A DNA stretch of 64,000 nt from positions 5,436,001 to 5,500,000 of the forward strand of contig NC_061773.1 in the NCBI RefSeq assembly GCF_022458985.1, written 5' to 3'. A program made the position numbers and the translations under genes. Under the pieces are notes generated by a model. It saw only the letters and a program-made list of their open reading frames with translations. It made no database searches and was not told the DNA's origin. Origin of the DNA: Mugil cephalus. Taxonomy: Eukaryota > Chordata > Actinopteri > Mugiliformes > Mugilidae. Shown one piece after another: positions 1 to 55,190 of the stretch. The first letter of the stretch is position 1. Each line of letters opens with the position of its first letter.

Positions 1-3000
1 TGCACACCATGGAGCGACACTGTGTGCAGGTGTTGGAGTTGGGCTTGTCGTCCCCAGTGCCCGTCAGGTCGGTGGTTTTGCAGACGGGACACAGTTTGCT
101 GCTGGGCATGGGCGCGATTTGAGGCACAGAGTAAGGAGAGGTGGGGACGCTGCCTCGGTCTGGGGACACAGAAGGGGACCTCCCAGGCCTGCTGCTACCC
201 ACATCCACCTGCAGACTCTTCCTGGATACGTGGCCGTGGCCCTGCTCGCCTTGAGCTGCAGCGTGCTGAGGAGTGTCATGGGCGGCCAGCCTGTCACCTG
301 TCCCAACGCCACTCTGGACTGTTGATTTAGGTCCTGGGTCTGACGGAGGTGGTCTGGCAGGGAGAGGGGAGAAAACGCAGAACAACGTGGAGGTTAGACA
401 TGAGTTAGGAGACAAAATTCAACAGAAAGACAAATCAATTACAACACATTGTATTTTTTGACCCCTGTAAATGTCAAGGAGCCGTCTGGGCCTGGAAATG
501 CTTGATTACTGTCACAAGACAGAGATCTCAAAGGTACCAGATTATTTCTACGTGCTTTCAGTTGTCATTTTTACACCATTGAATGTTTATCCCTTCAGTT
601 TATTTTTCCCTGCATAGCTTTAGTCACAGTCTTGACCAGTGTGCCCACATGCGAACGAAACATATTGTTTGTATACGTGACAAATTAAGTCTTCATCAAA
701 CAAGCGCGCACACATCGGAGATTTGCCTCGACCCTTTAAGTTTCCCTGACGTCATCGCAAACTTCCCGAGCACGCCTACTGTACAAGTCACACTATTTGA
801 TTTAAAAAAAAGTAATCACTGCGCTCGAGGGCGGAACAAACATATTACATTTTTTGATTTAAGTGAAATTGATTTGCTCGTGTCAACCCGCAGTGTCATT
901 CACTGCAAATCATCACCACAGCAGCCTTTTGGGTTGATTGAGGGAAAGGCTGAGGGGGCTGTTTGACAGCGGTGCGGCAAATAGAGGAGGTGAAAACAAT
1001 GAAAGAACAAGAGAAATGATGAATAGATGCACAGTCACTTATCTTAGAAGTATTGCTTGTTATTAAAGCAACATACTTTGAAGAGTTCTTAACTTTAAGA
1101 AAAAAGTTAACTCATATTTCACACATATTAACATATATTTTTTAAAAAATGCATTTGCTGTTATAGCAGTTATTTCTGCCTTAAATTAAACAAGTAGCGC
1201 TGCTTCTTCTTGAGTGGTACATTTCAGCCCTGAGATGCATTAAGATTCACATTCCATTAAAACATGGTGTGACTTTAGACCGGCTAACACAGAGCTGAAT
1301 GTTGGCTACTTTCTATAGCCTCTACTGTGAGTTGCTCCTCAAGGTTGTTTTCACTCTTTAAAGCTTTTCTGTCCTGGCCTCAGTAACGTGTTTGAGCTCT
1401 GTGCCTAGAAAGGTAGTGCATCAGTATCGTAAACATTTTGGCTTTCTCACTCATTCTGGGTCTTGAGGCATCGGTGACAATAGCTTGATGAGAATGGAGA
1501 ATTTCCACTGTCATATCATTTTAGACCTTGTTTTGTCAAGGCCGTCATCTTCAAAGACGGCCTCGGCAGCAGCCCCGTGCATCTACAGCCAGGGAGGGAA
1601 GGAGGAATTAAAATGGAGCTTGTTAGCATTTAAGCTCCAGAGCGCTCAGACCAACGAGCCTATCGGGAATGATCCACACTTTTCAAACCATCACCGAGCT
1701 GTTACATTTTAAATTCAACACAGTCTAAACTGGACATTTGGAGATATTGCTGAAGCATCTAACTGCCAATGCACAGAATGGACTGGTTCTAAAACCAAAT
1801 CTAATACATCCAGTGTCCGCATAAGATACAAGGTACCACGTGATATTTATCACTTAATTAGGATACATACAAAGTGGAGTCTCTTCTGATTTATGCAAAG
1901 TTTCAGGAATGACTTAATGAGAGTAAAAAAAAAAAAAGTTTAAAATGGAAGACACCTTTTCAAAAGATGCTTTTAAAGATTCTCATCCATCAGCAAATGG
2001 GAGTCCACTGAGAACAACTTGTGGCTTTATGTCTAAAGCGCTACAAATTGGTTGCCTTATCACAAAGTGGATAGTGAAGCATTTAGGCGCTGACAATCAT
2101 TTGTAATAAGAGCTCCCAGTGAAACTTCTCCCATCGTAAAGAGGCCATAAGACGGTCAATGATACATGAGATAATGCCAGTGCCACTGCTGAGAAGTCAA
2201 GACACACATCACGATGATTCACACTGCAACTGCAGCACAGTGTGAATCCTACAGGAACAGTTAAACATTTTGGGAAATATGTGTATAGGTGCTCAGATGG
2301 ATGAGAAAACTCATAGCACTCACATGTGATGAGTAACACAGGGCAACAGGAAGCAGCCAGTCAGCTTATCTCAGCACAGAGGACAAAACCTAGCATTTTC
2401 TCACAGTAAGTTTGGAAATTTAATGGACCCAGACTGAGAAGTAGTGCTGCTGATAGCCCCACCTCCCATGGCTGCTAAATTGAAAAGGTAATTTCGACGC
2501 TTTAGTATAAATGTAATGTTTTCCGTCTTGATCCCTTGAGTTGCATTTGTTACCTTCAGGCAAATCCCTAATTCCTCTGTCTTCATGCTATAACCTATAA
2601 CATTTACAGAACAGATATGAGAGTGGAATCATTATTCTCGTGCATGTCGTCCATTTTCTCTAGTTGTAAGCCAATGAACATGGAGTGGGCAGTAATGACA
2701 AACAGACGTCATTAGCACTGTCAGGCTAATGAGTGGGAATCAACTAGACACGGCGATCGTTCTCAGTAGCAGGCCACGAAGAGTGAATCCAACCAAGGTA
2801 AGAGTGTTGTTTGCACAAAAATAGACATATTATTATAGATTCAGTCGTGCAACACAATCCCATTTTAAATATCAAACATTATAAGAGCTACTGGTGCGTG
2901 AAGGCATCACAGCTTTTTGATAGAAATCTAGCGTTTATGTCCATTTCCAATTTGAATACAGAATAATGAGAGCTTATTTTAGTGACATCTCTGCAAACAA

Positions 3001-6000
3001 ATGTAGTCCCTCCAGTTTTTTAACCAGACCACGCTGTAAGTGGCATTCTGCATGGAAAAGTCCAAGAACAACAACAATAAAAAGCAATGCAGTTAAAAAG
3101 TAAACTGTCCCTTTACATGACACGTATATATTTCCCTCATGGGACAAAAACCTAACCTCAGACTGACATCTTTTTTTGTCAGATATGTCCCCTGGTATAA
3201 GATCATCTAAGACATGTGTGCTTAATTTTAGTCCCATACAGTATCAGTATCCTTGTAATGGACATGCTATACGTTTCTCATTGATTTATGCCTCTGTCCA
3301 CTGGAAATGAAACTGGGTAGCTGAGGCTTCTGGGTGAAACGTTGTCTCCTGCTTCCATTCAGAAATATTTAAAGGTCATAGCAGAAATGTATGGGACGGA
3401 TTAGACATGTCCAAATGCACCCTTTGTTTTAAACGTCCACATGCACGTTAAAGGCATCACTGTGAAGTTGTGAAGTATAAATCCACCGTGAACCGTCTCC
3501 TCAACAGAACAGCATCAACCACTGGCAAGGTCTGGAAATGTCAGAAAGAAAAATGTGAAGAGGTTGTGTTTGCTCCCCAGGAGGAAATATTTCTGCTGTG
3601 ATGCAATGCAGCAGCTGCGGGACACTTTGCTTTCTAAACAAGAGGTTTTCTGGGTTGGAGTTCATCTCAAGGGTTAAAGGGGGATGAAGGGGGTGGATAA
3701 AAGTCAACGCCAATTATTTTTCAAGTTATCTCTTATTTCTTGATGTTATTAGCTGTGCACTATGCTCCATTCCCACAAAATAATATGAACTCCCGCAGAT
3801 GCATTTAACGACATTATTTTCTCAATTAGCGAGTCCTTTGATAGAAGTAGTCACAAATAGACCCAAAGCAAAGCAGTTATGAGGAGCACTAAACTAATTG
3901 TTACAGTGTGTGGTGGAGGTGGGTATCAGGGTTATAGACCACAGCACTTCTTATTTCTATTACACGCAGGTCTTTTATCGTTTTGCATCAGACAAGCTCG
4001 GCTAATCCTGAAAAACTAATTGATGAACAGAGATGGATGAGGGAAAGCTCGGGAGACAATGCATTCACCAGGATGCTGGCCAAATATAAATGCAGTATCT
4101 ATATTTCTAAAACCTTTCTTTATGTATCATTTAAAATCACAACTTGTCCTTAACAACAACCACCGCACAAACTGTGAGCTACAGCTGTTAATGTGCGTCA
4201 ATGTCCAGTCCAATGTGCGCACCCGGGACTGAACCAGGCCCGGTGCTGCTGGAGCTGACTGAAGCTCAGGTTCAGTCGCTGTGTAATCTCAGTGCAGAGT
4301 CTTTGAGATGAACCGTCCTCAGTCTGACAACATGAGGTGGAACGGTATGTACTTATTTATGTGGTTTCGCTCAGCTTCACAAAGTATAACATGAAAAACT
4401 CAACCATTTCATGTGATCAGTTTGCAGCAGCTGAAAGTGGCAAGTAAAAAGTCTTATAACAATAAAAACATGCATGATGCAATGCCTCCAGGTACAGCCT
4501 GTGTATATCATATATTATTTTTAAGGCTAGGATCCCAACCAAAGACTTTCATAAAAAAAAAAATAAAAAAATAAAAACATATTTAATCTAATGTAACTAT
4601 CAGTGAACCAGTGAATGAGGTAACACAATAGTGGCTAATACAAACATATTTGCATTACTACAAACTGGGTGACAGTCTGTGGTAATACTTTCAGAAAACA
4701 AAAGTATTTAGTTACTTTAGGTGTAATATCTATAAATAAATATGAATGCAGAAAGCTAAACCTTCAAGACATGACAGCCGATGGGTTCCGAAACTGCTGC
4801 TAAGTCAAACAAAACTGTTGCAAACAACAGCTGCAGTTTCACATTAATTAACCGTGAAACTTATAAAAGTGTCTCCTTTGTTTCTCCGCTCCAGGATCCT
4901 GTGACCTGTAGTATTAAACCACATCTGCTGTTATCACTGTAAGTGTCGTCATATCAACCAGGATTAAGATCTGAGAGGCTGCCTCTTTAATAAAAACGTT
5001 GTCACTCTAATGACTTAATCCCTTATAGGCAGAAGTCAGAAGTGTCATAAATAATAATAAAACGTATGAATTATTTGTTTGGGTTACGATAACCATTTAG
5101 TATATATAGGCTACATAGCGCACAGTGCTTTCATTGCAGCAGGTAAATTAATTATGAGAACCTACTGTCAGAGCACTAGTGCTTGAGTGGATCCATTATT
5201 TCCACGGTTTATGAACTGTAGCTTTGTTTTGGTTTGAAAAGAAAGTGGCACATGTTGAACAGAATCAAATGCCGCTCCACATTTCGTAGCGTATGTCATT
5301 ACATGACGAGGAAAGTTCGGTTCAGCGCTATTTTAATTGTCAGAAAAACAACGGGACGACAATTCAGCAGCAGAACACTGAGCGCGTTGTTGTGAACAGG
5401 ACATTGGTACTTGTGTCAGAACGCTTTTCAGCCAGTCATCAGGTTGGGATGACTGCGTACATAGTCAAAGCTGTTGTGATAAGAAAAACAACTAGTGTGA
5501 TGCAGAAGGGCGGGGTGGCTGGAATAGATTCCTACAAGGGCTCAGATTTAGCTCTCTGACTGCAATGAATAAAATATAATAGGCCCTGAAAAAGAGCAAA
5601 AAAATAAGTCTATACAGAACTTACTTTCAAATTAAGTTATTATATCGCATATTATACTGCATATATATATATATATATACAGTATGTATACCTATACATC
5701 ATATCTACTCATAATATTAGGCATACTTATCAAGTGCTGCAACCCATTTAATTAAGAGGAACGTCCCCAATCTACAGACTCAGCTCAGCCACAGTCTCAT
5801 TGTTTCTCAAACTCCCACAAATTCTTTGTAAAAGAATACGTTGGACTGATCACAGAGGCACGATCTGAAGGAGGCCATTTAAATCAGCCATATAATACAC
5901 GCTCTCCCCCTCTCTGCCTATTTCTCACCACGCCTCCCTCTCCCGGCCTCTCAGCTCACTCAGTCTCTCACCGCTCGCCATCACTTTATGAGATACCTTA

Positions 6001-39999: not shown

Positions 40000-40005
40000 A
40001 ATAAA
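40000..40005 (+). terminator. First poly(A) signal after RASSF1
   Basis: AATAAA lies only 15 nt after the RASSF1 stop codon. Further AATAAA hexamers follow up to about 40450, so a longer 3' UTR is equally possible. Confidence 0.4.
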
Positions 40006-41314
40006 CCTCGTATTTGAACCATAAGAAAGACCTACTCCTGCCTTGAAAAGAATCATGGATCCATAAGAAAATTTATAGCAACATAAAAGGGACAAGAAGA
40101 GCTCAGGAAATGATGTTATTGGCAGGATGGGTTTCTAGTAAAACAGGGAGACTGTTACATACAAGGTGAATTAACTAAAGGATCAGGTCGTACTACGATT
40201 GTGAACACAGGACCACTGCTATGATCGGAATTGGCACAAAACTTAAAAGGCTGTCTTGACTGGATGCAATTCCTTCTTTAATACCGATGCTGCTCAATGT
40301 GTTTATTAAGAGACACAGATAATAATAGTAATAAATTGTGATTTTATTTGTAATTTATCTTTAGTTTTTAAAATGTTAGCACATCAACTTGTGAAATTAA
40401 ATTAAAATAAATTTATATTCGTATTATCTAATAAACACATCATAATAAATGATGAGTCACTTTTCCTTATTTTACACTTAATTTGTGCTCTGGCTTTTTA
40501 AGTGGGGGCCAGAGTATCATGGTCAAAAGTGTGTGAACACTTTATTATTGTGATGGTTCTGTGTCTTTGTCTTTTATTTGTGCAGATGTTCTGAGTTTTC
40601 TTTTTTAATTTGTTAAGTTCCTTATTTTCCGTGTATTGCTCATTGGTTTCTCCCAGTGTGTTTGCCCTGATTAGTTTTTTGCACTTAACACATTGGCTTC
40701 ACTGTAGTCTACCCGAGCCATAAATGTTAGGCCACTAGCAATAGCAAATTTTAAATCAATACAGATACATTTTAAGATAAATATGCAAATTAAATTTGAA
40801 CTTAATGGTAAAATAAGCAAGTATTTGTCTGTCCAAACAGGGTTACGTCAGTGCTTTTCACTGTTAATTTTACATTTCAAAGTTTAAAAGACATATTTCT
40901 GACTCAGCATTTTGGCACTACTACACGCTACATTGTATGCAGACTGTTACCCGGCTACAAGGGTTTCCTGGGCTGCAACACTGTAGGAATAGCTGAAATC
41001 TTGTGAAACCTGTTGCATTCTGCATCAGTTCACTTCCTATGGGAATCTTATTGGTACCATGAGAATTGTAACAACAATTTAAATAAAAATAACTTAAGTG
41101 GATAAACCAACGATTTCTTCTAACTGGTGGAGGTGCAGCAGAGCATAGTTAATTAAACAAAAATGCGAGTAGGTCTGGTGGACATACCATATACTGTATA
41201 GACAGAAACTTTCCTTGAAAAAAAAAAATTAATGTGCATTTTAATCTGTCAATGCATGTGGCTCAATTCCACACAAGCTTGTGCAGCTCACTCTGACAAA
41301 ACATCATGTCCCCA
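40006..41314. other. RASSF1 3' flank, no gene seen
   Basis: AT-rich DNA, the first part of which (to about 40450) may be RASSF1 3' UTR with several poly(A) hexamers. No exon or named repeat is supported in the remainder. Confidence 0.6.
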
Positions 41315-42000
41315 GCAGAGTCAGAGACCTCAACACTGACTATTATAACAACTTCAGGATGAGAACCTGTTCAGAAGCAGTGACATCAGGCTGGCACAAG
41401 ATCAAGACATTCTCCCTGGCCATAAACATGCTCACAAAGTCTGCTGAACCAGAGTGCAGGACGAAGTCTGCGTAACGCCAGCCACCGATCAGAGCGTTTA
41501 TAGACGACCTCACAGTCACCACAGAATCAGTCCCAGGCTGCCGGTAGATTCTAAAGGGTCTCGAAAAGCCGATGGTGGATGCGAGGATGCGCTTTAAACC
41601 AGCCAGGTCAAGATCAATAGTGCCAAGTAGAGGAAAAGTAGATGACAAGTAGCAGTTCAGCGTTGCAGGTGCAACAATCCCGACCATCAGATGAGCCTGT
41701 CGTGAGCTTTGGTAAGGGGTCTGAGGGACGCAGCATCAAGCAAATCAATCTGCACTAAACTGGAAAGAAGGCTGAAGTCAGTGGACTAGTCTGGATTGCC
41801 AGGGAAGTTCAAAGCTTGGTTTTACCAACATGGCATCCTTTCCAGGATCCTGTACTCCACGTCTATGAAGTGCCAATCTAGACAGTAGAAACCCTTGACA
41901 GAAAGATCAGCAACCACCTAAGAAGATGTGTGGGGCTTCCAAGAGGTCTGAAGAGCATTGCTCTCTATGGGCACCATAACAAACTTGACTTCCTCTCAAG
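41315..42000 (+). mobile_element. Decayed reverse-transcriptase fragment of a non-LTR retrotransposon (LINE-like)
   Basis: Plus-strand pieces read VRDLNTDYYNNF, then NMLTKSAEPECRTKS, then AFIDDLTVTTESVPGCR with the F-x-D-D form of the reverse-transcriptase catalytic box, then ILKGLEK, and further on a KAW..YQHGI-like stretch and HLRR.LGLPR-like stretch ending at a SIALYGH-like motif. These belong to a reverse-transcriptase family common in fish genomes. The copy has internal stops, frame changes and missing segments and covers only the palm and thumb parts. No 5' or 3' end was identified, and I cannot assign the clade with confidence. Confidence 0.6.
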
Positions 42001-42039
42001 TGTTTTAGTGTGATTTAAATGAAAGTAAAGTGAACTAAA

Positions 42040-42670
42040 TACATCCCTTTTGTCTTTCTGTCCAGGCTCTCATTTCATTGTGCCTCATATTTGTTTATAA
42101 TAGTCTTACATCTATTTATAACAACACCTAATTTGCACTAATTTACCTAAAGCTGACAAATAACACCTATGATATTAACATAGTATCTGTTAATTATAAT
42201 TAATTATATCTGTTAATAATAGTGTCATGTTCTTGTCACTTTACTTAGCGCTGACAAATAGCACTTATGATATTGCATAGCTGTTTATAAATGTGTGCTG
42301 TAGAGAGATGTATACATTATTATAACTTTATTACATATACTTATAGCTACAGATATAAAGGACTAAAGGCGAAGTCAAAACTTATTATGCATCACTATGC
42401 ACATTTAGCAAAGCCAAGTAGTTATGATGCATCATAACATTAACAAGTGACTAGGCAGATATTGACATATTTATTATGCACTATTCAGATTAAAATTATA
42501 ATCATTCATAACCAGTTGTCATAATGCATCATGAAGTTGGTTATGACGACTTGTGAATATGTATAGATGGTAATAATGACCATTATAATGCTTTATAGAC
42601 ACCTTATAAAACATTATGAGTGCATTCATAGGGCATTATAAATACAACCTTCATAGAAAGTATTACCCTG
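42040..42670. repeat. AT-rich dispersed repeat, unclassified
   Basis: The stretch is built from many short related motifs (cattataatg, cttataaaac, cattcataggg, catcataac), often in both orientations, and ends in tagaaagtattaccctgag, which looks like the end of a fish miniature element. No matching opposite end is seen. It directly abuts the 8.5 kb composite structure to its right. Confidence 0.35.
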
Positions 42671-42671
42671 A

Positions 42672-43155
42672 GATTCAATTTCAATTCAATTCAATTTTAT
42701 TTATATAGCGCCAATAACAATACAAAACGTCTCAAGACGCTTCACAAAAACCAGCCTACAACCTCCAGAGCAAGCCTGAGGGCGACGGTGGCAAGGAAAA
42801 ACTCCCTTTTAACAGGAAGAAACCTTGAGCAGAACCAAGCTCATATGGAGGGACCCATCTGCCGAAGGCCAGCCGGTTAGAAACAGAGAAGATAAAGAGA
42901 AAAGAAGAGCAGGAGAAACGAGACAAACAAACTTCTGTCATAGATACATACATCAAGCTGAAGGAAACATGTAGGGTCTAGTAATATAACACATAGCTGA
43001 TGATCTATGAGACAGTTTGTGAGTATAACAGGAATCATGGGCAGGTTGGTGAATTGTTCATCTAGATAGGAGTGGACAACTGGAGGAGGCCATGATGACT
43101 GGGACAGATGTAGTTTATGGAGCTCCACAGGTCTGATACACGGCACTCCAGACCA
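42672..43155 (+). repeat. Left inverted copy of the bracketing repeat
   Basis: Begins with an ATTCA-type run and tatatagcgcc and contains aaaaactcccttttaacagg, catagctgatgatctatgag and cactggaggagg-like strings that are all found reverse-complemented at 50725-51166. This sequence type is a frequent dispersed repeat in teleosts. The left copy carries about 35 bp (near 42850-42890) that the right copy lacks. Confidence 0.85.
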
Positions 43156-43299
43156 CAAGAAGATGGAGGGAGAGGGGAGGGGAGATGGTGAGACACAGTG
43201 GTTAGTAATAGAAAATTCAATTATAAGGGATTAGAGGACAGGAGGATTAGAGGACTTCTTATTTTTGCATTTAAAAAAATCTGGGAGCAGACAGCATCT

Positions 43300-46200
43300 G
43301 AATGCTATAAACAAAGTGATGTTCAGTGTAAAATCCAACTCCTACAGGAGATTATCTTCAGCAAATCCTGAAAATTAAAAGCAGACTCCTTGAGGAGAAT
43401 TTTTTCAGCAAATCCTGAAAATCAAAAGTAGAAAAAGAGTTGATCTCTGAGTTTAGTGTTTGTGGCTAAACCTGAGATGTACCTGAACATCAGAAAGCGA
43501 TGAACAAAGTCATGTTCAGTCTAAAATCCGACTCCTAGAGGAGATTTTTTTCAGCAAATCCTGAAAATCAAAAGCAAAAGAAGAGTTAATCTCTGAGTTT
43601 AGTGTTTGTGGCTAAACCTGAGATGTACCTGAACATCAGAAAGTTAGAAAAGAAGTGATGTTCAGTCTAAAATGCGACTCCTAGAGGAGATTTTTTCAGC
43701 AAATCCTGAAAATCAAAAGCAGAAGAAGAGTTAATCTCTGAGTTTAGTGTTTGTGGCTAAACCTGAGATGTACCTGAACATCTGAAAGCGATGAACAAAG
43801 TGATGTTCAGCCTAAAATCCGACTCCTGGAGGAGATTTTTTCAGCAAATCCTGAAAATCAAAAGTAGAAAAGACTTAAACAGATTTAGCCACAAACACTA
43901 AACTCAGAGATGTACCTGAACATCAGAAAGTTAGAAAAGAAGTGATGTTCAGTCTAAAATCCGACTCCTAGAGGAGATTTTTTCAGCAAATCCTGAAAAT
44001 CAAAAGCAAAAGAAGAGTTAATCTCTGAGTTTAGTGTTTGTGGCTGAACCTGAGATGTACCTGAACATCAGAAAGCTATGAACAAAGTCATGTTCAGTCT
44101 AAAATCCGACTCCTAGAGGAGATTTTTTTCAGCAAATCCTGAAAATCAAAAGTAGAAAAGACTTAAACAGATTTAGCCACAAACACTAAACTCAGAGATG
44201 TACCTGAACATCAGAAAGTTAGAAAAGAAGTGATGTTCAGTCTAAAATCCGACTCCTGGAGGAGATTTTTTTCAGCAAATCCTGAAAATCAAAAGTAGAA
44301 AAGACTTAAACAGATTTAGCCACAAACACTAAACTCAGAGATGTACCTGAACATCTGAAAGTTAGAAAAGAAGTGATGTTCAGTCTAAAATCCGACTCCT
44401 TGAAGGGAGATTTTTTTCAGCAAATCCTGAAAATCAAAAGCAGAAGAAGAGTTAATCTCTGAGTTTAGTGTTTGTGGCTAAACCTGAGATGTACCTGAAC
44501 ATCTGAAAGTTAGAAAAGAAGTGATGTTCAGTCTAAAATCCGACTCCTGGAGGAGATTTTTTTCAGCAAATCCTGAAAATCAAAAGCAGAAGAAGAGTTA
44601 ATCTTTGAGTTTAGTGTTTGTGGCTAAACCTGAGATGTACCTGAACATCTGAAAGCGATGAACAAAGTGATGTTCAGTCTAAAATCCGACTCCTAGAGGA
44701 GATTTTTTTCAGCAAATCCTGAAAATCAAAAGTAGAAAAAGACTTAAACAGATTTAGCTACAAACACTAAACTCAGAGATGTACCTGAACATCTGAAAGC
44801 GATGAATAAAGTGATGTTCAGTCTAAAATCCGACTCCTTGAGGAGATTTTTTTCAGCAAATCCTGAAAATCAAAAGCAGAAGAAGAGTTGATCTCTGAGT
44901 TTAGTGTTTGTGGCTAAACCTGAGATGTACCTGAACATCAGAAAGTTAGAAAAGAAGTGATGTTCAGTCTAAAATCCGACTCCTTGAAGGGAGATTTTTT
45001 TCAGCAAATCCTGAAAATCAAAAGTAGAAAAAGACTTAAACAGATTTAGCCACAAACACTAAACTCAGAGATGTACCTGAACATCAGAAAGTTTGAAAAG
45101 AAGTGATGTTCAGTCTAAAATCAGACTCCTTGAAGCGAGATTTTTTTCAGCAAATCCTGAAAATCAAAAGTAGAAAAGACTTAAACAGATTTAGCCACAA
45201 ACACTAAACTCAGAGATGTACCTGAACATCAGAAAGTTAGAAAAGAAGTGATGTTCAGTCTAAAATCCGACTCCTAGAGGAGATTTTTTCAGCAAATCCT
45301 GAAAATCAAAAGCAGAAGAAGAGTTAATCTCTGAGTTTAGTGTTTGTGGCTAAACCTGAGATGTACCTGAACATCAGAAAGCGATGAACAAAGTCATGTT
45401 CAGTCTAAAATCCGACTCCTTGAAGCGAGATTTTTTTCAGCAAATCCTGAAAATCAAAAGTAGAAAAGACTTAAACAGATTTAGCCACAAACACTAAACT
45501 CAGAGATGTACCTGAACATCAGAAAGTTAGAAAAGAAGTGATGTTCAGTCTAAAATCCGACTCCTAGAGGAGATTTTTTCAGCAAATCCTGAAAATCAAA
45601 AGCAGAAGAAGAGTTAATCTCTGAGTTTAGTGTTTGTGGCTAAACCTGAGATGTACCTGAACATCAGAAAGCGATGAACAAAGTCATGTTCAGTCTAAAA
45701 TCCGACTCCTTGAAGCGAGATTTTTTTCAGCAAATCCTGAAAATCAAAAGTAGAAAAGACTTAAACAGATTTAGCCACAAACACTAAACTCAGAGATGTA
45801 CCTGAACATCAGAAAGTTAGAAAAGAAGTGATGTTCGGTCTAAAATCCGACTCCTAGAGGAGATTTTTTTCAGCAAATCCTGAAAATCAAAAGTAGAAAA
45901 AGAGTTAATCTCTGAGTTTAGTGTTTGTGGCTAAACCTGAGATGTACCTGAACATCAGAAAGTTAGAAAAGAAGTGATGTTCAGTCTAAAATCCGACTCC
46001 TAGAGGAGATTTTTTCAGCAAATCCTGAAAATCAAAAGCAGAAGAAGAGTTAATCTTTGAGTTTAGTGTTTGTGGCTAAACCTGAGATGTACCTGAACAT
46101 CAGAAAGCGATGAACAAAGTCATGTTCAGTCTAAAATCCGACTCCTAGAGGAGATTTTTTTCAGCAAATCCTGAAAATCAAAAGTAGAAAAAGACTTAAA

Positions 46201-49200
46201 CAGATTGCTAAATCTGGCTAAATCTGTTTAAGTCTTTTTCTACTTTTGATTTTCAGGATTTGCTGAAAAAAATCTCGCTTCAAGGAGTCGGATTTTAGAC
46301 TGAACATCACTTTGTTCATCGCTTTCAGATGTTCAGGTACATCTCAGGTTTAGCCACAAACACTAAACTCAAAGATTAACTCTTCTTCTGCTTTTGATTT
46401 TCAGGATTTGCTGAAAAAATCTCCTCTAGGAGTCGGATTTTAGACTGAACATCACTTCTTTTCTAACTTTCAGATGTTCAGGTACATCTCTGAGTTTAGT
46501 GTTTGTGGCTAAACCTGAGATGTACCTGAACATCAGAAAGTTAGAAAAGAAATGATGTTCAGTCTAAAATCCGACTCCTTGAAGGGAGATTTTTTTCAGC
46601 AAATCCTGAAAATCAAAAGCAGAAGAAGAGTTAATCTCTGAGTTTAGTGTTTGTGGCTAAACCTGAGATGTACCTGAACATCAGAAAGTTAGAAAAGAAG
46701 TGATGTTCAGTCTAAAATCCGACTCCTGGAGGAGATTTTTTTCGGCAAATCCTAAAATCAAAAGCAGAAAAAGAATTAATCTCTGAGTTTAGTGTTTGTG
46801 GCTAAACCTGAGATGTACCTGAACATCAGAAAGTTAGAAAAGAAGTGATGTTCAGTCTAAAATCCGACTCCTGGAGGAGATTTTTTTCAGCAAATCCTGA
46901 AAATCAAAAGTAGAAAAGACTTAAACAGATTTAGCCACAAACACTAAACTCAGAGATGTACCTGAACATCAGAAAGTTAGAAAAGAAGTGATGTTCAGTC
47001 TAAAATCCGACTCCTTGAAGGGAGATTTTTTTCAGCAAATCCTGAAAATCAAAAGTAGAAAAAGAGTTAATCTCTGAGTTTAGTGTTTGTGGCTAAACCT
47101 GAGATGTACCTGAACATCAGAAAGCGATGAACAAAGTCATGTTCAGTCTAAAATCCGACTCCTAGAGGAGATTTTTTTCAGCAAATCCTGAAAATCAAAA
47201 GTAGAAAAAGACTTAAACAGATTTAGCCACAAACACTAAACTCAGAGATGTACCTGAACATCAGAAAGTTAGAAAAGAAGTGATGTTCAGTCTAAAATCC
47301 GACTCCTAGAGGAGATTTTTTTCAGCAAATCCTGAAAATCAAAAGTAGAAAAAGAGTTAATCTCTGAGTTTAGTGTTTGTGGCTAAACCTGAGATGTACC
47401 TGAACATCTGAAAGTTAGAAAAGAAGTGATGTTCAGTCTAAAATCCGACTCCTGGAGGAGATTTTTTTCAGCAAATCCTGAAAATCAAAAGTAGAAAAGA
47501 CTTAAACAGATTTAGCCACAAACACTAAACTCAGAGATGTACTTGAACATCAGAAAGTTAGAAAAGAAGTGATGTTCAGTCTAAAATCCGACTCCTAGAG
47601 GAGATTTTTTCAGCAAATCCTGAAAATCAAATGCAGAAGAAGAGTTAATCTCTGAGTTTAGTGTTTGTGGCTAAACCTGAGATGTACCTGAACATCAGAA
47701 AGTTAGAAAAGAAGTGATGTTCAGTCTAAAATCCGACTCCTGGAGGAGATTTTTTTCAGCAAATCCTGAAAATCAAAAGTAGAAAAGACTTAAACAGATT
47801 TAGCAACAAACACTAAACTCAGAGATGTACCTGAACATCAGAAAGTTAGAAAAGAAGTGATGTTCAGTCTAAAATCCGACTCCTTGAAGGGAGATTTTTT
47901 TCAGCAAATCCTGAAAATCAAAAGTAGAAAAAGAGTTAATCTCTGAGTTTAGTGTTTGTGGCTAAACCTGAGATGTACCTGAACATCAGAAAGCGATGAA
48001 CAAAGTCATGTTCAGTCTAAAATCCGACTCCTAGAGGAGATTTTTTTCAGCAAATCCTGAAAATCAAAAGTAGAAAAAGACTTAAACAGATTTAGCCACA
48101 AACACTAAACTCAGAGATGTACCTGAACATCTGAAAGCGATGAATAAAGTGATGTTCAGTCTAAAATCCGACTCCTAGAGGAGATTTTTTTCAGCAAATC
48201 CTGAAAATCAAAAGCAGAAGAAGAGTTGATCTCTGAGTTTAGTGTTTGTGGCTAAACCTGAGATGTACCTGAACATCAGAAAGTTAGAAAAGAAGTGATG
48301 TTCAGTCTAAAATCTGACTCCTAGAGGAGATTTTTTCAGCAAATCCTGAAAATCAAAAGTAGAAAAAGAGTTAATCTCTGAGTTTAGTGTTTGTGGCTAA
48401 ACCTGAGATGTACCTGAACATCTGAAAGCGATGAACAAAGTGATGTTCAGTCTAAAATCCGACTCCTAGAGGAGATTTTTTTCAGCAAATCCTGAAAATC
48501 AAAAGCAGAAGAAGAGTTGATCTCTGAGTTTAGTGTTTGTGGCTAAACCTGAGATGTACCTGAACATCTGAAAGTTAGAAAAGAAGTGATGTTCAGTCTA
48601 AAATCCGACTCCTAGAGGAGATTTTTTCAGCAAATCCTGAAAATCAAAAGCAGTAGAAAAGTTAATCTCTGAGTTTAGTGTTTGTGGCTAAACCTGAGAT
48701 GTACCTGAACATCAGAAAGTTAGAAAAGAAGTGATGTTCAGTCTAAAATCCGACTCTTGGAGGAGATTTTTTTCAGCAAATCCTGAAAATCAAAAGTAGA
48801 AAAGACTTAAACAGATTTAGCCACAAACACTAAACTCAGAGATGTACCTGAACATCAGAAAGTTAGAAAAGAAGTGATGTTCAGTCGAAAATCCGACTCC
48901 TAGAGGAGATTTTTTTCAGCAAATCCTGAAAATCAAAAGTAGAAAAGACTTAAACAGATTTAGCCACAAACACTAAACTCAGAGATGTACCTGAACATCA
49001 GAAAGTTAGAAAAGAAGTGATGTTCAGTCTAAAATCCGACTCCTTGAGGAGATTTTTTTCAGCAAATCCTGAAAATCAAAAGCAGAAGAAGAGTTAATCT
49101 CTGAGTTTAGTGTTTGTGGCTAAATCTAAGATGTACCTGAACATCAGAAAGTTAGAAAAGAAGTTATGTTCAGTCTAAAATCCGACTCCTTGAGGAGATT

Positions 49201-49740
49201 TTTTTCAGCAAATCCTGAAAATCAAAAGTAGAAAAAGAGTTAATCTCTGAGTTTAGTGTTTGTGGCTAAACCTGAGATGTACCTGAACATCTGAAAGCGA
49301 TGAATAAAGTGATGTTCAGTCTAAAATCCGACTCCTGGAGGAGATTTTTTTCAGCAAATCCTGAAAATCAAAAGTAGAAAAGACTTAAACAGATTTAGCC
49401 ACAAACACTAAACTCAGAGATGTACCTGAACATCAGAAAGTTAGAAAAGAAGTGATGTTCAGTCTAAAATCCGACTCCTTGAGGAGATTTTTTTCAGCAA
49501 ATCCTGAAAATCAAAAGTAGAAAAATAGTTAATTTCTGAGTTTAGTGTTTGTGGCTAAACCTGAGATGTACCTGAACATCAGAAAGCAATGAACAAAGTC
49601 ATGTTCAGTCTAAAATCCGACTCCTAGAGGAGATTTTTTTCAGCAAATCCTGAAAATCAAAGGCAGAAAAAGACTTAAACAGATTTAGCCACAAACACTA
49701 AACTCAGAGATGTACCTGAACATCTGAAAGCTACAAACTA
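43300..49740. repeat. Satellite array, about 43 units of 142-150 bp, two unit subtypes
   Basis: Each unit carries gatgttcagtctaaaatccg, a ctcctagaggag-like short palindrome, a T-run, cagcaaatcctgaaaatcaa, a 28 bp core and gatgtacctgaacatc. Spacing between successive gcaaatcctg landmarks measured at the left end is 142-146 bp. The core is present in two orientations: forward (example 43443-43470) or exactly reverse-complemented (example 43884-43911). By eye I count about 26 forward and 17 inverted. Inverted cores always follow agacttaaacaga, and forward cores follow gagttaat or gagttgat, so these are two stable subtypes. Divergence between units is only a few percent. The first units (43300-43420) are degenerate, and the last (from about 49700) decays into unique DNA. 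Confidence 0.95.
46208..46487 (-). repeat. Two array units in reverse orientation
   Basis: Within the array, about 280 bp reads as the reverse complement of the neighbouring units (for example aaaatctcctctaggagtcg and ctgaacatcacttc). The left joint is a near-perfect palindrome centred near 46213; the right joint joins aggtacatctc to the mirror-image gagatgtacct arms. Confidence 0.9.
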
Positions 49741-50724
49741 AAATCCTGAATAACAAAGGCAGAAAGAGACTTAAACTGTTTGTTTGTGGCTTAATCTCCA
49801 TGACTACCTGAGGCTTTGATGAAAGATTCTGATGATCAAAGACCTTATGGAACTTGTCTACGTTGTATATGCAAATGAGAGAACGCAGCTGATTACTACC
49901 ACGTGACATGACGCGAATGACATAAGTCTGTCACGTGATTATTTATTTGATTATTAGAAGTCATTCCCCAATAATGTCATTAATCATGAATAAATTTCAA
50001 CCACTTTTAAGGAAGCCACGTTAGATATCGTCAGTCTCTATTTTGAAGCAAATCGTTTCTTCAAAACGACATTCTGATTCAACTTTTGCCTTTATCCGAG
50101 CGTTTTTTCAGTGAAACACTCAAGCTGTTACTGACAGATACAGTTTCGTACATTTAAGATAAATTATTAAAAGTGACTTTGCACTTTGCTCCCTCCCGTT
50201 CGCCTCGTTAACACATCCAGAGTTGCGTTAACCAAGGCTAATTCATTAGCTGGTTAATTAGCTACTCAATCATTTCAGCTTATAGGCTAGCAATGTTGTG
50301 CAAAAACAACATCAACGAACATATCATACTCAAAATTCGCCTACCGAAGTGGAGGACACACTCTTTATATGTTCTGTAATTGCAGCAATAACGGACAAGT
50401 ATTATTTGGGTTTAAAATGGTCAAAATGGATGACATGTCACTCAAAAAGCGACCACGCCCTCAATTACGCAGAACTTAAACCTTAAAAAAAAATCAATGG
50501 GTGTGTTATAAAAAAAAAAAGAAAAAAGAAAAAATACATACAACATTCGTTTTCGTTGTCGCGAATAATGAAATAAGCTGTTAAGACCAAAAACATTTCT
50601 GTTTTTGGTTCCAGACTGCAAACATGTTTATTTTGCTGTAAAGTTTGGCTTTTTCTCAGTATCTGACCTGTGGAGTTCTAAGCTACATCAGCTGCTGTGG
50701 CCTCATCAACCAGCCCAGTCTTCA
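49740..50724. other. Unique DNA between the array and the right inverted repeat
   Basis: About 1 kb of non-repetitive AT-rich DNA, with two cacgtga/tcacgtg E-box-like sites around 49900 and 49932 and poly-A runs near 50485-50535. No gene is recognised, and no counterpart exists on the left side of the array. Confidence 0.6.
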
Positions 50725-51166
50725 TGGTCTGGAGTGCTGTGTATCAGACCTGAGGAGCTCCATAAACTTCATCTGCGTCGTCATGGCCTCCTCCAGTTGT
50801 CCACTCCTACCTAGCTGAACAATTCACCAACTTGCCCATGATTCCTGTTATACTCACAAACTGTCTCATAGATCATCAGCTGTGTGTTGTATGATTAGAT
50901 TCCTTCAGCTTGATATATGCATCTATGACAGAAGTTTGTTTATCTTGTTTCTCCTGATCTTCTTTTCTCTCTATATTCTCTCTTTCCCGCCATATGAGCT
51001 GGGTTCTGCTCAAGGTTTCTTCCGATTAAAAGGAGTTTTTCCTTGCCACCGTCGCCCTCAGGCTTGCTCTGGAGGTTGCAGGCTGGTTTTTGTGAAGCGT
51101 CTTGAGACGTTTTGTATTGTTATTGGCGCTATATAAATAAAATTGAACTGAATTGAATTGAATTAA
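50725..51166 (-). repeat. Right inverted copy of the bracketing repeat
   Basis: Reverse complement of the left copy, including the mirror of tatatagcgcc at 51125-51136 and an outer TGAAT/ATTGA run to about 51166. It differs from the left copy by scattered substitutions and by the lack of about 35 bp. Confidence 0.85.
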
Positions 51167-51444
51167 ATAAATATACAAGTAAAATTGAATTTGTAAAAAT
51201 TTTTGTGGACACTCGATTAGCCCTGAGGGCACTGACTGGGAGACATGATGACCCCCGTGGACATCATGGAGGCAGGTCTGCTGGCAGGCAGCCTCTTACA
51301 CCCTGGTCCGCAACAACATGGCAGCTGTTCCCTCTGGGAAATTTCACATTTGCAGCAGCAAGGTACAGGCACTCAGCAACATACATACTACATAAAACAG
51401 GAAGAACACAATATACTATATACATTTTTTTTACAGAATTATAA

Positions 51445-52430
51445 AGATAAGTGAATTGAAAGAAAGTGAATACAAGATGTACAGAGTGTTATCTGTGACA
51501 AACAGATGAGGAATTAAACAGGCATCTGACTTGAGGCAGGAAAGATTTCCTGTAGCGTTCTTTGAGGCAACGGAGTTGTCTGAGTCTCTTGGAGAAGTCT
51601 GTCTTGTCTGTCTATCATCTGGTGGAGAGGGTGGTCAGGATTATCCATGATTGATAACAGTTTGTTAAGTGTCCGCCTCTCCACCACCACCTCAAAAGTT
51701 TCCTGAGTGTAGCCAATGACAGAGCCAGCCTTCCTGATCAGTTTATTCAGTCTGTTGGCGTCACTGGCTGCAATGCTATTCCCCCAGCAGACCACAGCAG
51801 AGAAAAGGGTCCTGGCCACAACAGACTGGTAGAAGATCTCCAGCATCTTACTGCACACGTTGAAGGATTTCGGCCACATCCTTACCAAGGATGCTGAGGG
51901 GCTGAGGAGCTGTTCCCTTCCTCCTGATGTCAGTCACCATCTCTTTGGTCTTGTCCACGTTTAGCAGCAGGTGATTCCTTCCAGCTCACCCCACAAATCT
52001 GTCCACCAGTCCTTTGTACTCCTCCTCATCCCGTCATCCCTCTTATACACGCCACAACTGCAGAGTCATCAGAAAATTTCTGGATGTGACATGACTGAGT
52101 TGTGCTGAAAGTCAGTGGTGTATAAGGTGAACAGAGTAAGTACAGTCCCCTGTGGGACTCCCACACCACTCACCACCACAAACTGTGGCCTGTCTGTCAG
52201 GTAGTCAGTGATCCAGGAGACAGGATCCACCAACACCCATCAACCGCAGCTTCCCACCCAGGAACAAAAGGCTGGATGGTGTTCAAGGCACTGGAGAAAT
52301 CAAAGAAAGTGATCCTCACTGAGCCACCACCATCCAGGTGTGAGCTGCAGCAGACAGATGACCGCACCATCCACCCCCAGACTCAGATGATAGGCAAACT
52401 GTAGGGGGTCAAAGGTGGTCTACCTGGCCG
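51445..52430 (-). mobile_element. 5'-truncated LINE (L2/jockey-like) reverse-transcriptase remnant
   Basis: On the minus strand the sequence reads from DPLQFAYHLSLGVDGAVI through ITFFDFS-type, DYLTDRPQFVVV and VPQGTVL pieces and KFSDDSAVV (catalytic box) to the ORF2 tail at 51514-51888, which includes IFYQSVVARTLFSAVVCWG, LIRKAGSVIG and LSIMDNPDHPLH. These strings are hallmarks of a very common teleost LINE. Everything upstream of the fingers region is missing, as expected from 5' truncation on insertion. The coding part is broken by several frame changes and stops. The 3' limit is uncertain and could extend to about 51180. Confidence 0.8.
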
Positions 52431-52719
52431 TGGAATGAATTTACAAAGTGTATAATTGACACTGAAGACTTTAACTGCAATTTTTTCAATAAAAGTATCT
52501 GCTATTCCGAGGTTTCATCAGACATTTTCTTAAGAAATATTCATTACATGCTTCGTAGTAGGGCAGTTCATTAAATGTAAACACTTCTGTGCACTAAAAC
52601 AAAGGCAAACATTAAGAGTTGTTGTTATTTATAGGTTAATAAGGTATTGTGGTACTGGTCCGGTCCCAGTGAGATCAAACTGGTCTGAATATTTTGTCTG
52701 GATTTAAGTGCGTCATACT

Positions 52720-52980
52720 GAAGTCCCACATAGGTTCGCGCATCTCTTCTCTGTTCAGTGTTTCCAGGTCACCCTCCTCTCCATGTGGTGGCGGTAGCTC
52801 TCAATGTTTCTGAACCAGCCGTCAAAGGAAAAGACAGAAGAACAGCGTGCAGCGTTAGTTAGCATAAACAGCTACCATAGCTGTGTTTACCAGACGTTTG
52901 AGGAATTAGCAACCCGGCAAGAAAACCTCATCAAAAGAAAAAAGAAGTCCGATCTGCGAACACGATACTTCCCAGTGTAG
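52720..52980 (+). promoter_or_regulatory. Probable TUSC2 promoter and non-coding first exon
   Basis: A donor (gtgtag followed by gtatgt at 52981) ends a segment containing the string catgtggtggcggtagctc, which resembles a short repeat often found at fish gene starts. The coding exon of TUSC2 opens with an acceptor gtgacag ending at 53793. The order promoter, non-coding exon, 0.8 kb intron and coding exon is inferred. Confidence 0.4.
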
Positions 52981-53890
52981 GTATGTTTTCATGAGAGCTA
53001 CAACCAGTGGTTATCAAACCAGCTCGTGTGAGCTATTGTCAATATCAGTAAACGTTATTTTGATAAGAAACATGTTGACCTGGCTAATGCTACTAACGCA
53101 GTGCTAAGTGTCTTTAGCTAAATGTGGCGTTATCAGCCAGGAGATAAGGTGACAATAAATGTGTGACTAATGAAAGAAGGACCGATGTGTGTTGGCGTTG
53201 CTGGTCAAGGTTAGCTAGCTGACTTAGCTGCTATATCTAGAAAACCTCCCGAGTCCTTAAGATTCTAATCAGAGCTAAATATTGTTTTTCAGACGTCCAC
53301 TTACCCTTTTAAGCTATTTTTATAGCATAATATAAGTAGATTTCTTTGTACGGAACGCTAGAGGAGCTGTCTTAATATAATTTTGCAACGTCAGCTTGCA
53401 ATGTCATGTCACTGGCCTTCTGTTAGTGACATAGATGCAGGACACATACTTCGGATTTTTACCATACATGGAGTCGGTATCACCCTGGACCACTTATTAC
53501 ATCTGTGTTGTATTCTCTATTTGATTCATTAGAATGATACTATTTGATTCAAGTGTCTCAGAGTCCATGTTTTTAATCCGTATGTGTTACAGTAAAGTGA
53601 AACCCACCTGTTTACCTTTCTGAAAGGTAGAAGTACAGTCCCTTTCTGTGGTGACACTGTTCACATTTGTTCCCAGAAATGTGGAATTCAGCAATATATG
53701 TGTACAGACCTCTTGCTTGCTTAATCAATAAAAGGTCATACATCACCAAGTTATATTGCATGAAATGACCAGTTTCCTCTTGTCGTGTGACAGGTCTCCT
53801 ATCCTGAAGCTCTCAGTTCATCTAGTACAGTAACACTGTAGCACCACTGGCAGTCCTGTGACCCAAGAAAATAATGTGCTGCAGCTGAAG

Positions 53891-55190
53891 ATGGGGGGTA
53901 GCGGCTCCAAATCCAAAGGATTTTGGCCTTTTTCTGGCTCAGGTAGTGGTGACGATCCAACCAAAGACGGAAACGGGCAGACACTGACAAGAGTTCGAAG
54001 CTTCCCAGGTGCAACACCTTTCGTGTTTACCAGACGAAGGTAACTACAGCGTCCGTCCACACAGTATATGCTCCTAACATACAGGCCCAGCTTACACTAA
54101 CTTATACAAACGCTGTTGGAGTCATGAAAAGTCACTGATCTAGTGATGACATTGAAAATAGCAAATGTGATGTCATATATTCAAATTAGAATATAACAAG
54201 AGATCCATTCATAAAAGACTGGTCAATGCAAGATGTTAGTAAAAAATATTTAGCCAGTGTTGTTGACTCTGGAAAAGATGAAGTCATAAATGTATGTTGT
54301 TGGCCCAGCAGTTCAGGCCATCCAGTCACTCATCATAACAGAAAGCCCATGAGTATGTTTGTTCATCCAACTTCTGTCATTATTTATCCCCTCGGTCTTC
54401 ATTCTCCTCATTTGTATTTAGCATGAGTAGACACAAACACACCATATCTTTGTAGCAAATCTGTGGTATTATTGCTGGCCTCTTATTTACCACATTTATA
54501 CTGTTACCACATTTAAGCTGTAATTTCTTACCATACTTCCCCAACCATGTAAAATAAACCTTTTTAAGCACGGAAAGACCATTTTGCTTAAACTACACAA
54601 TATAATGCACAAGGTTCCTAAGAGGCTGAGTCCCGTGGACTTGGACTGAGACAGACTAATGATCCACGAGGGAAATTACTTGGTCACAGTAGCTAGTAAA
54701 AAGAAAGATAAAAGAAAAAAGGATCAGATTAGAATCAAATAAAAATTTGTATTATGAACAAATTTACAGAAGTAGTTGGTAAAAAAAAATAAAAAAAAGC
54801 TCAAGTGTGTTTTTTGAATGTAAATACCGCCTTTTTTATTTTAAGGTGGAGGGTCTTGGAGAATCATAATTTATTGATTTAGTCTCTTTTTTGCAGCTCT
54901 ATGTTCTTTGATGAAGATGGTGACTTGGCCCATGAGTTCTACGAAGAGACAATTGTGACAAAAAATGGACGGAAAAAAGCCAAGCTGAAAAGGATTCACA
55001 AAAACTTAACAGCTCAGGTGAGGAAATTAAAATATTCAACTTTGACTTTACTTACCAACATCATTTCTCTGTTTAATTAACTCAAATGATTTTTATTTTT
55101 GTGTCCTTCCAGGGAATAATAAAGCTGGACCACCCGTGCATCCATGTAGATTTCCCAGTTGTCCTCTGTGAAGCCTCACTGAATGTCTGA
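53891..55190 (+). CDS. tusc2: TUSC2 (FUS1), mitochondrial-associated tumour suppressor
   Basis: TUSC2 is a small N-myristoylated protein linked to mitochondrial calcium handling and tumour suppression. Three exons at 53891-54039, 54897-55017 and 55113-55190 total 348 nt, 115 residues (human 110). The start MGGSGSKSKGFWPF matches human MGASGSKARGLWPF, including the myristoylated Gly2. The core RSSMFFDEDGDLAHEFYEET, IVTKNGRKKAKLKRIHKNL and QGIIKLDHPCIHVDFPVVL is nearly identical to human. The C-terminus is five residues longer (CEASLNV against YEV). The gene lies between RASSF1 and HYAL2 in the same orientation, exactly as in the human cluster. Confidence 0.97.

Follow-up and report, generated by a model that had tools for sequence, protein, structure and literature searches.

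Inverted LINE ends around a satellite array in Mugil cephalus most probably reflect a layered history rather than a single element

The stretch of Mugil cephalus DNA analysed here, 64,000 nucleotides of contig NC_061773.1 (positions 5,436,001 to 5,500,000; hereafter the window), contains a long tandem satellite array. The array lies between two genes, both on the plus strand, that by their translations are probably RASSF1-like (about 36.0-39.6 kb) and HYAL2-like (from 58.7 kb). Two facing copies of one dispersed sequence bracket it, and a first-pass annotation of the window had offered three readings of the resulting 8.5 kb structure: a single large non-autonomous element with long terminal inverted repeats (TIRs), a way for satellites to spread, or a coincidence of two insertions. 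Our analysis favours a structure of three layers rather than one element, in which two independent insertions of a long interspersed nuclear element (LINE) lie around an older satellite-bearing unit. We give this reading a probability of roughly 0.85.

Results

The bracketing repeats are LINE 3' ends with different inner ends

The two facing copies are real. Window positions 42,673-43,155 align to 51,163-50,725 with 85.5% identity over 483 columns (E value 3e-165), a match between the two window copies that is far beyond chance. Both are the 3' ends of a LINE, namely a non-long terminal repeat (non-LTR) retrotransposon of the apurinic/apyrimidinic endonuclease and reverse transcriptase (APE/RT) type. 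Genome searches were run on the 634.8 Mb assembly of 24 contigs, given here by C numbers, in which the window is C4:5,436,001-5,500,000; fetched stretches carry L numbers. First-look candidates for the left copy numbered 3,445, of which the best 40 were scored and listed (96-100% identity), and 10 kb was fetched around 20 of the 39 listed hits other than the window's own, one stretch including 500 N. The 3' end is common to all 20 fetched copies and their mutual similarity runs 478-5,075 bp upstream; a common 3' end with variable upstream extent is the pattern of 5'-truncated LINEs. Frames of two long copies, L017 and L022, matched Pfam RVT_1 (PF00078), and the sole upstream frame scanned, in L017, matched Exo_endo_phos (PF03372), an APE-type endonuclease. 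Going by the tail sequence only, the clade is presumably L2/CR1-like of teleosts. As in other 5'-truncated APE-type LINE insertions, a 3' tail of short tandem repeats goes together with variable 5' truncation and with endonuclease and RT domains; the window copies differ in that no target duplication was recovered for them.

We mapped both window copies on L008, a longer genomic copy of the LINE whose positions serve as a ruler. The left copy has its (TTCAA)n tail on the outer (left) side, is 5' truncated at ruler position ~687 and carries an internal deletion of ~92 bp, whereas the right copy, with its tail on the outer (right) side, is 5' truncated at ~555 and carries several internal deletions. 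The annotated equivalence of start and stop points is thus lost at the inner ends. On the outer side the copies agree, since both end in the LINE 3' tail, and the inner ends seem to coincide in a direct comparison because the ~92 bp deletion of the left copy begins where that alignment breaks.

Measured against the 20 genomic copies, the first ~480 bp of the left copy show 96.1-96.9% identity and 2.5-3.3% substitutions, and the right copy shows 85.1-87.2% identity and 4.8-6.4% substitutions, a comparison biased by the choice of these 20 references as best matches to the left copy. Within the LINE 3' region, sequence around GCACTCCAGACCA is directly duplicated (L008 from 1491, ruler about 473-575). 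Two of the 20 copies, L011 and L016, are truncated at about 480, near this duplication, and the internal deletion of the left window copy is located there too. Scans of viral_contigs gave no match to the LINE tail, the LINE 3' motif or the satellite motif, and no related literature, judged by titles, was found for the letters of the LINE tail.

LINE and satellite occur apart from each other

In keeping with the annotated lack of coding capacity, the 8.5 kb structure has no stop-to-stop frame of at least 150 codons within 42,672-51,166; the sole frame of at least 110 codons has 117 and is inside the left LINE copy. The LINE occurs without the satellite, which was found in none of the 20 sampled 10 kb LINE stretches (E value <= 1e-8). 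None of the 39 listed LINE hits other than the window's own (from the best 40 of 3,445) has a satellite place within 15 kb. A second LINE copy is present in three of the 20 fetched stretches, inverted in L011 and L027 and direct in L025, so inverted pairs without the satellite exist. The 40 listed hits include two further pairs less than 15 kb apart, one inverted at C1:27.85 Mb (11 kb apart) and one direct at C5:0.87 Mb.

The satellite, too, occurs without the LINE, judging from the stretches read at five of its seven loci outside the window. Neither window LINE copy has a match in L041-L045, L047 or L048, seven stretches from C6, C8, C1, C16:17.26 Mb and, for two edges and part of the interior of the array, C13:24.58 Mb, so that C13:24.10 Mb and C16:16.76 Mb fall outside this count; the stretches reach only roughly 0.5-1.8 kb past the monomers, so a LINE farther out is possible. 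Neither copy matches L046, a further stretch of C8, either. Two of the refuting conditions set by the first-pass annotation come out against the single element. The enclosure in the window is moreover lopsided: the first monomer sequence follows the left LINE after about 50 bp, and the right LINE lies about 0.87 kb past the last degenerate monomer (~49,790). The only inverted repeat found close to the array is one 10 bp A-rich match.

The satellite sits inside a dispersed unit that is probably older

The satellite is listed at eight loci including the window (108 matches; 19 of 19 candidates scored). Other arrays are located at C13:24.10 Mb (minus strand) and C13:24.58 Mb (plus strand), and short relics on C6, C1, C8 and C16 (two). 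The sequence to the right of the window array stands beside the satellite at seven of the eight loci (window, C6, C8, both on C13 and both on C16) and was absent at C1 in the ~0.9 kb read to the right. It recurs without a listed satellite at three places in a C8 tandem gene cluster and at C23 (best 40 of 150 candidates). A left flank, queried from C6, accompanies the satellite at five of the eight loci (C6, C8, both on C13 and C1) and was found nowhere else (5 of 5 candidates scored); both flanks are present at four (C6, C8 and the two on C13). In the window the left flank has no match on either side of the left LINE. The recurrence of the flanks at other loci indicates that the satellite expanded inside an older, low-copy dispersed unit. 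The proposal that the structure is a way for satellites to spread therefore stands in part: the satellite does lie within a dispersed unit, but that unit is distinct from the LINE and presumably older, with flanks common to several loci.

In the window the right flank breaks off at the start of the right LINE. The unit goes on past that point in L041 and L045, and this continuation has no match beyond the right LINE in the window. The LINEs thus lie at the broken edges of the old unit, which in the window lacks its outer parts. The final ~100 bp of the right flank (50,555-50,654) is a separately abundant repeat that stands alone at 24 further places (best 40 of 150 candidates).

Satellite loci also occur as pairs ~0.5 Mb apart in opposite orientation, at C13:24.10/24.58 Mb and C16:16.76/17.26 Mb, which may reflect inverted segmental duplications. 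Inside the C13:24.58 Mb array, L047 (C13:24582100-24586300) shows inserted DNA of roughly 0.5-0.7 kb, foldback-like by eye (about 1000-1700 and 2780-3310); it has been duplicated along with monomers, with 90% identity and a period near 1.73 kb.

The array carries a flipped core and a larger inversion

Tandem Repeats Finder (TRF) confirmed the annotated array, at 43,376-49,678 with periods of 146 (score 8001) and 291 (score 7976). It consists of about 44 units of ~145 bp with a tendency to form 291 bp dimers; monomer sequence is recognisable from near 43,296 and fades near 49,790, becoming degenerate at the right edge. Rfam gave nothing at gathering score on 40,000-54,000, and ARAGORN found no tRNA in the window.

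The monomers form two classes that differ by the inversion of a ~28 bp core, itself an imperfect palindrome. On the plus strand of the array we counted 25 forward and 17 reversed cores (n = 42), and on the minus strand one of each. The commonest reversed core has 15 exact occurrences, and its reverse complement equals 27 of 28 bases of the forward cores, both in the window and in the C8 relic. Outside the window, all 27 classifiable monomers have the forward core (19/19 in the C13 interior and 8/8 in L041, L042, L044 and L045), in counts that exclude two reversed-looking cores in L047 lying outside monomers and seven ambiguous anchors (L042 two, L043 three, L044 one, L045 one), L048 being without an anchor. 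A looser scan added one reversed-like hit each in L044 (at 1221) and L048 (at 384), both outside satellite matches. Since the classifiable monomers elsewhere are all forward, the reversed form is most simply the derived one.

Along the array the two classes tend to alternate, in keeping with the period of 291 bp: a series of 38 monomers (22 forward, 16 reversed) forms 27 runs against 19.5 expected (z +2.5). The forward core of the window (47 nt) folds as a DNA hairpin better than shuffled sequences (z -5.31), and the reversed core no better than shuffles (z -0.08); two core copies from outside the window, slightly shorter at 42 nt, fold weakly (z 0.13 and -1.22).

A second inversion, two monomers long, lies within the array. 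Self-inverted matches at 45,931-46,499 and 46,228-46,779 place its centres at 46,215 and 46,503, and both junctions fall in monomer cores. Coordinates of all features are collected in Table 1.

Table 1. Features of the bracketed structure, in window coordinates
Feature	Position	Strand	Basis and remarks
Left LINE copy	42673..43244	-	3' end of APE/RT non-LTR retrotransposon; alignment to L008
Satellite array	43296..49790	+	TRF; edge monomers by BLAST and reading
Two-monomer (~289 bp) inverted segment in array	46215..46503	-	Self-inverted matches, minus-strand anchors, sequence read
Right flank of old unit	49790..50654	+	Recurs at C6, C8, C13 (two), C16 (two) and C23
Right LINE copy	50660..51164	+	Same LINE family as left copy; alignment to L008

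Neighbouring sequence

Directly outside the left LINE tail, 42100-42672 is A+T-rich with repeated TTATAA-like words and may be a miniature inverted-repeat transposable element (MITE). Further left, 40675-40850 matches L045:1817-2002, near a C13 array, at 76% and is further repeated sequence. To the right of the right LINE, 51200-52430 holds an antisense fragment that resembles another LINE reverse transcriptase, and 52,103-52,426 matches L042 at 79.6%.

Discussion

We propose that the structure was built up in three layers. The oldest would be a low-copy dispersed unit, consisting of a left flank, one to few ~145 bp monomers and a right flank, at about eight places. In a second layer the internal monomers would have expanded at three places, the C4 window and the two on C13, into arrays of ~6-11 kb, a length that on C13 counts inserted DNA as well. 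In the lineage of the window, a ~28 bp imperfect palindrome would have become inverted in one monomer class and then been amplified together with the original, often alternating with it as dimers. The last layer would be the two APE/RT LINE copies with their (TTGAA)n tail, presumably inserted independently of each other, one per side, in opposite orientation and 5' truncated, each probably with some loss of the outer parts of the unit. The inverted bracketing is then most likely a coincidence of orientation, and among the three readings offered by the first-pass annotation the last, a coincidence of two insertions, is the best supported.

Several observations weigh against this history. Neither of the two LINE copies nor the structure as a whole showed a convincing target duplication; there are two shared 7 bp words, neither of them at both outer boundaries of the 8.5 kb structure, and loss by mutation is possible. 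The missing target duplications leave independent insertion neither proven nor excluded. Both LINE 5' ends sit near remains of the old unit, and the missing unit parts have no match (E value <= 0.01) on the far side of either LINE. With no unit remains beyond the LINEs, simple insertion into an intact unit is insufficient, and deletion or later recombination is needed on each side. In addition, the evidence from LINE hits rests on the best 40 of 3,445 candidates. Finally, the flank alignments, in which few copies were read, show no sharp common end, and the unit may have moved as a transposon or by segmental duplication.

As to the nature of the old unit, we hold at slightly less than even odds that it is a true DNA transposon, of a Helentron-like or foldback kind for instance, in which internal repeats develop into satellites. 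Such a transposon would account for the conserved flanks on both sides of 1-3 monomers at several loci and for the long arrays at three. The beta-microseminoprotein-like genes among which the C8 copies lie are matched on C8 only, so that at its other places the unit has no tie to that gene. Neither termini or TIRs nor a hairpin end or target duplications came to light, although no search for Helentron ends was made; the low copy number and the ~70-80% identity also speak against a transposon, and the locus pairs on C13 and C16 could be segmental duplications. Two described systems offer comparisons. The foldback transposon Tetris of Drosophila virilis with its TIR-220 satellite (PMC4079207) likewise has tandem repeats in a dispersed unit with a longer array at some loci; here, in contrast, the monomers are central, no TIRs were shown, and the outer inverted copies are LINEs. 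The Cg_HINE non-autonomous Helentrons of Crassostrea gigas (PMC7492417) resemble the unit in their dispersed satellite-like central repeats between two conserved flanks, and differ from it in that the unit here has a low copy number.

An ancient segmental duplication that is not mobile, with a minisatellite expanded in some copies, is a plausible account as well, though one we would hold with some reserve. The copies are few, and C13 and C16 have two loci each, about 0.5 Mb apart. Three right-flank copies lie in the tandemly duplicated gene cluster of C8, and the two of these that were read are 99.0% alike over ~1.08 kb. Less easily explained by segmental duplication is the spread of the unit, whole or in part, over seven contigs (C1, C4, C6, C8, C13, C16 and C23), as is the fact that the similarity of L041 to L042-L045 ended within the stretches read, simple repeats apart.

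The C8 cluster itself consists of tandem beta-microseminoprotein-like genes (PF05825), seen in L046 (C8:17557300-17562600); exon matches spread over C8:17.549-17.567 Mb account for about five of them. Three of these genes have upstream, at a spacing of about 3.54 kb, a 71% copy of the flank found right of the window array. We rejected the idea that the unit is the upstream region of this gene family, since the protein matches C8 only (22 of 22 candidates scored).

Turning to the LINE pair, its origin in one event, by inverted duplication or by recombination of one insertion, is very improbable. The two copies are of the same family, in opposite orientation and both near the remains of the unit, but their truncation points and their private deletions differ, and at the thresholds used no sequence beyond the tails is common to both. 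A single composite element, non-autonomous and foldback-like, with the inverted LINE ends as termini mobilising the satellite between them, would suit an array flanked by two inverted copies at one locus and the lack of unit remains outside the LINEs, but it is already contradicted by the present results and can hardly be credited, given that its supposed TIRs are LINE 3' ends with different truncations, that no target duplication was found for the whole, that the sampled LINE stretches are free of the satellite and that the satellite stands elsewhere without a LINE in the stretches read.

Against the background of the layered history, the flipped-core satellite is the part worth keeping; the remainder is ordinary in kind. 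Within an imperfect inverted repeat, the array presents a local inversion that is exact and whose original state is seen elsewhere, as would be expected of a template-switch spacer inversion. In yeast, template switching at imperfect inverted repeats is described as inverting the spacer and homogenising the arms (PMC8604942). The array shares with that system a short palindromic core with its inside inverted, and differs from it in that a nuclear satellite here carries the inverted form as one of its two amplified monomer classes; the inversion event is one that we infer. The flipped core, together with the breaks of the larger inversion at such cores, would fit template switching or inversion at a hairpin. 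Our literature search, judged by titles and the starts of abstracts, found nothing on flipped cores in satellites and in one case yielded chiefly chloroplast genome papers.

Tentatively, and with our confidence stopping short of one half, we suggest that the palindromic core is a recurrent inversion point, responsible both for the 28 bp flip that founded the second monomer class and for the two breakpoints of the 289 bp segment. A short hairpin would then drive the array to diversify in structure, and the array may be polymorphic for flipped states.

The locus carries a caution for the annotation of repeats, namely that inverted copies of a common LINE beside an array can imitate a giant element; mapping both bracketing copies on a longer member of the family is the telling check. 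For the satellite family, the loci provide a small natural series bearing on how satellites arise within dispersed units; it runs from 1-3 monomers to arrays at three of the loci, and one array of this series shows hairpin-linked inversions of two sizes.

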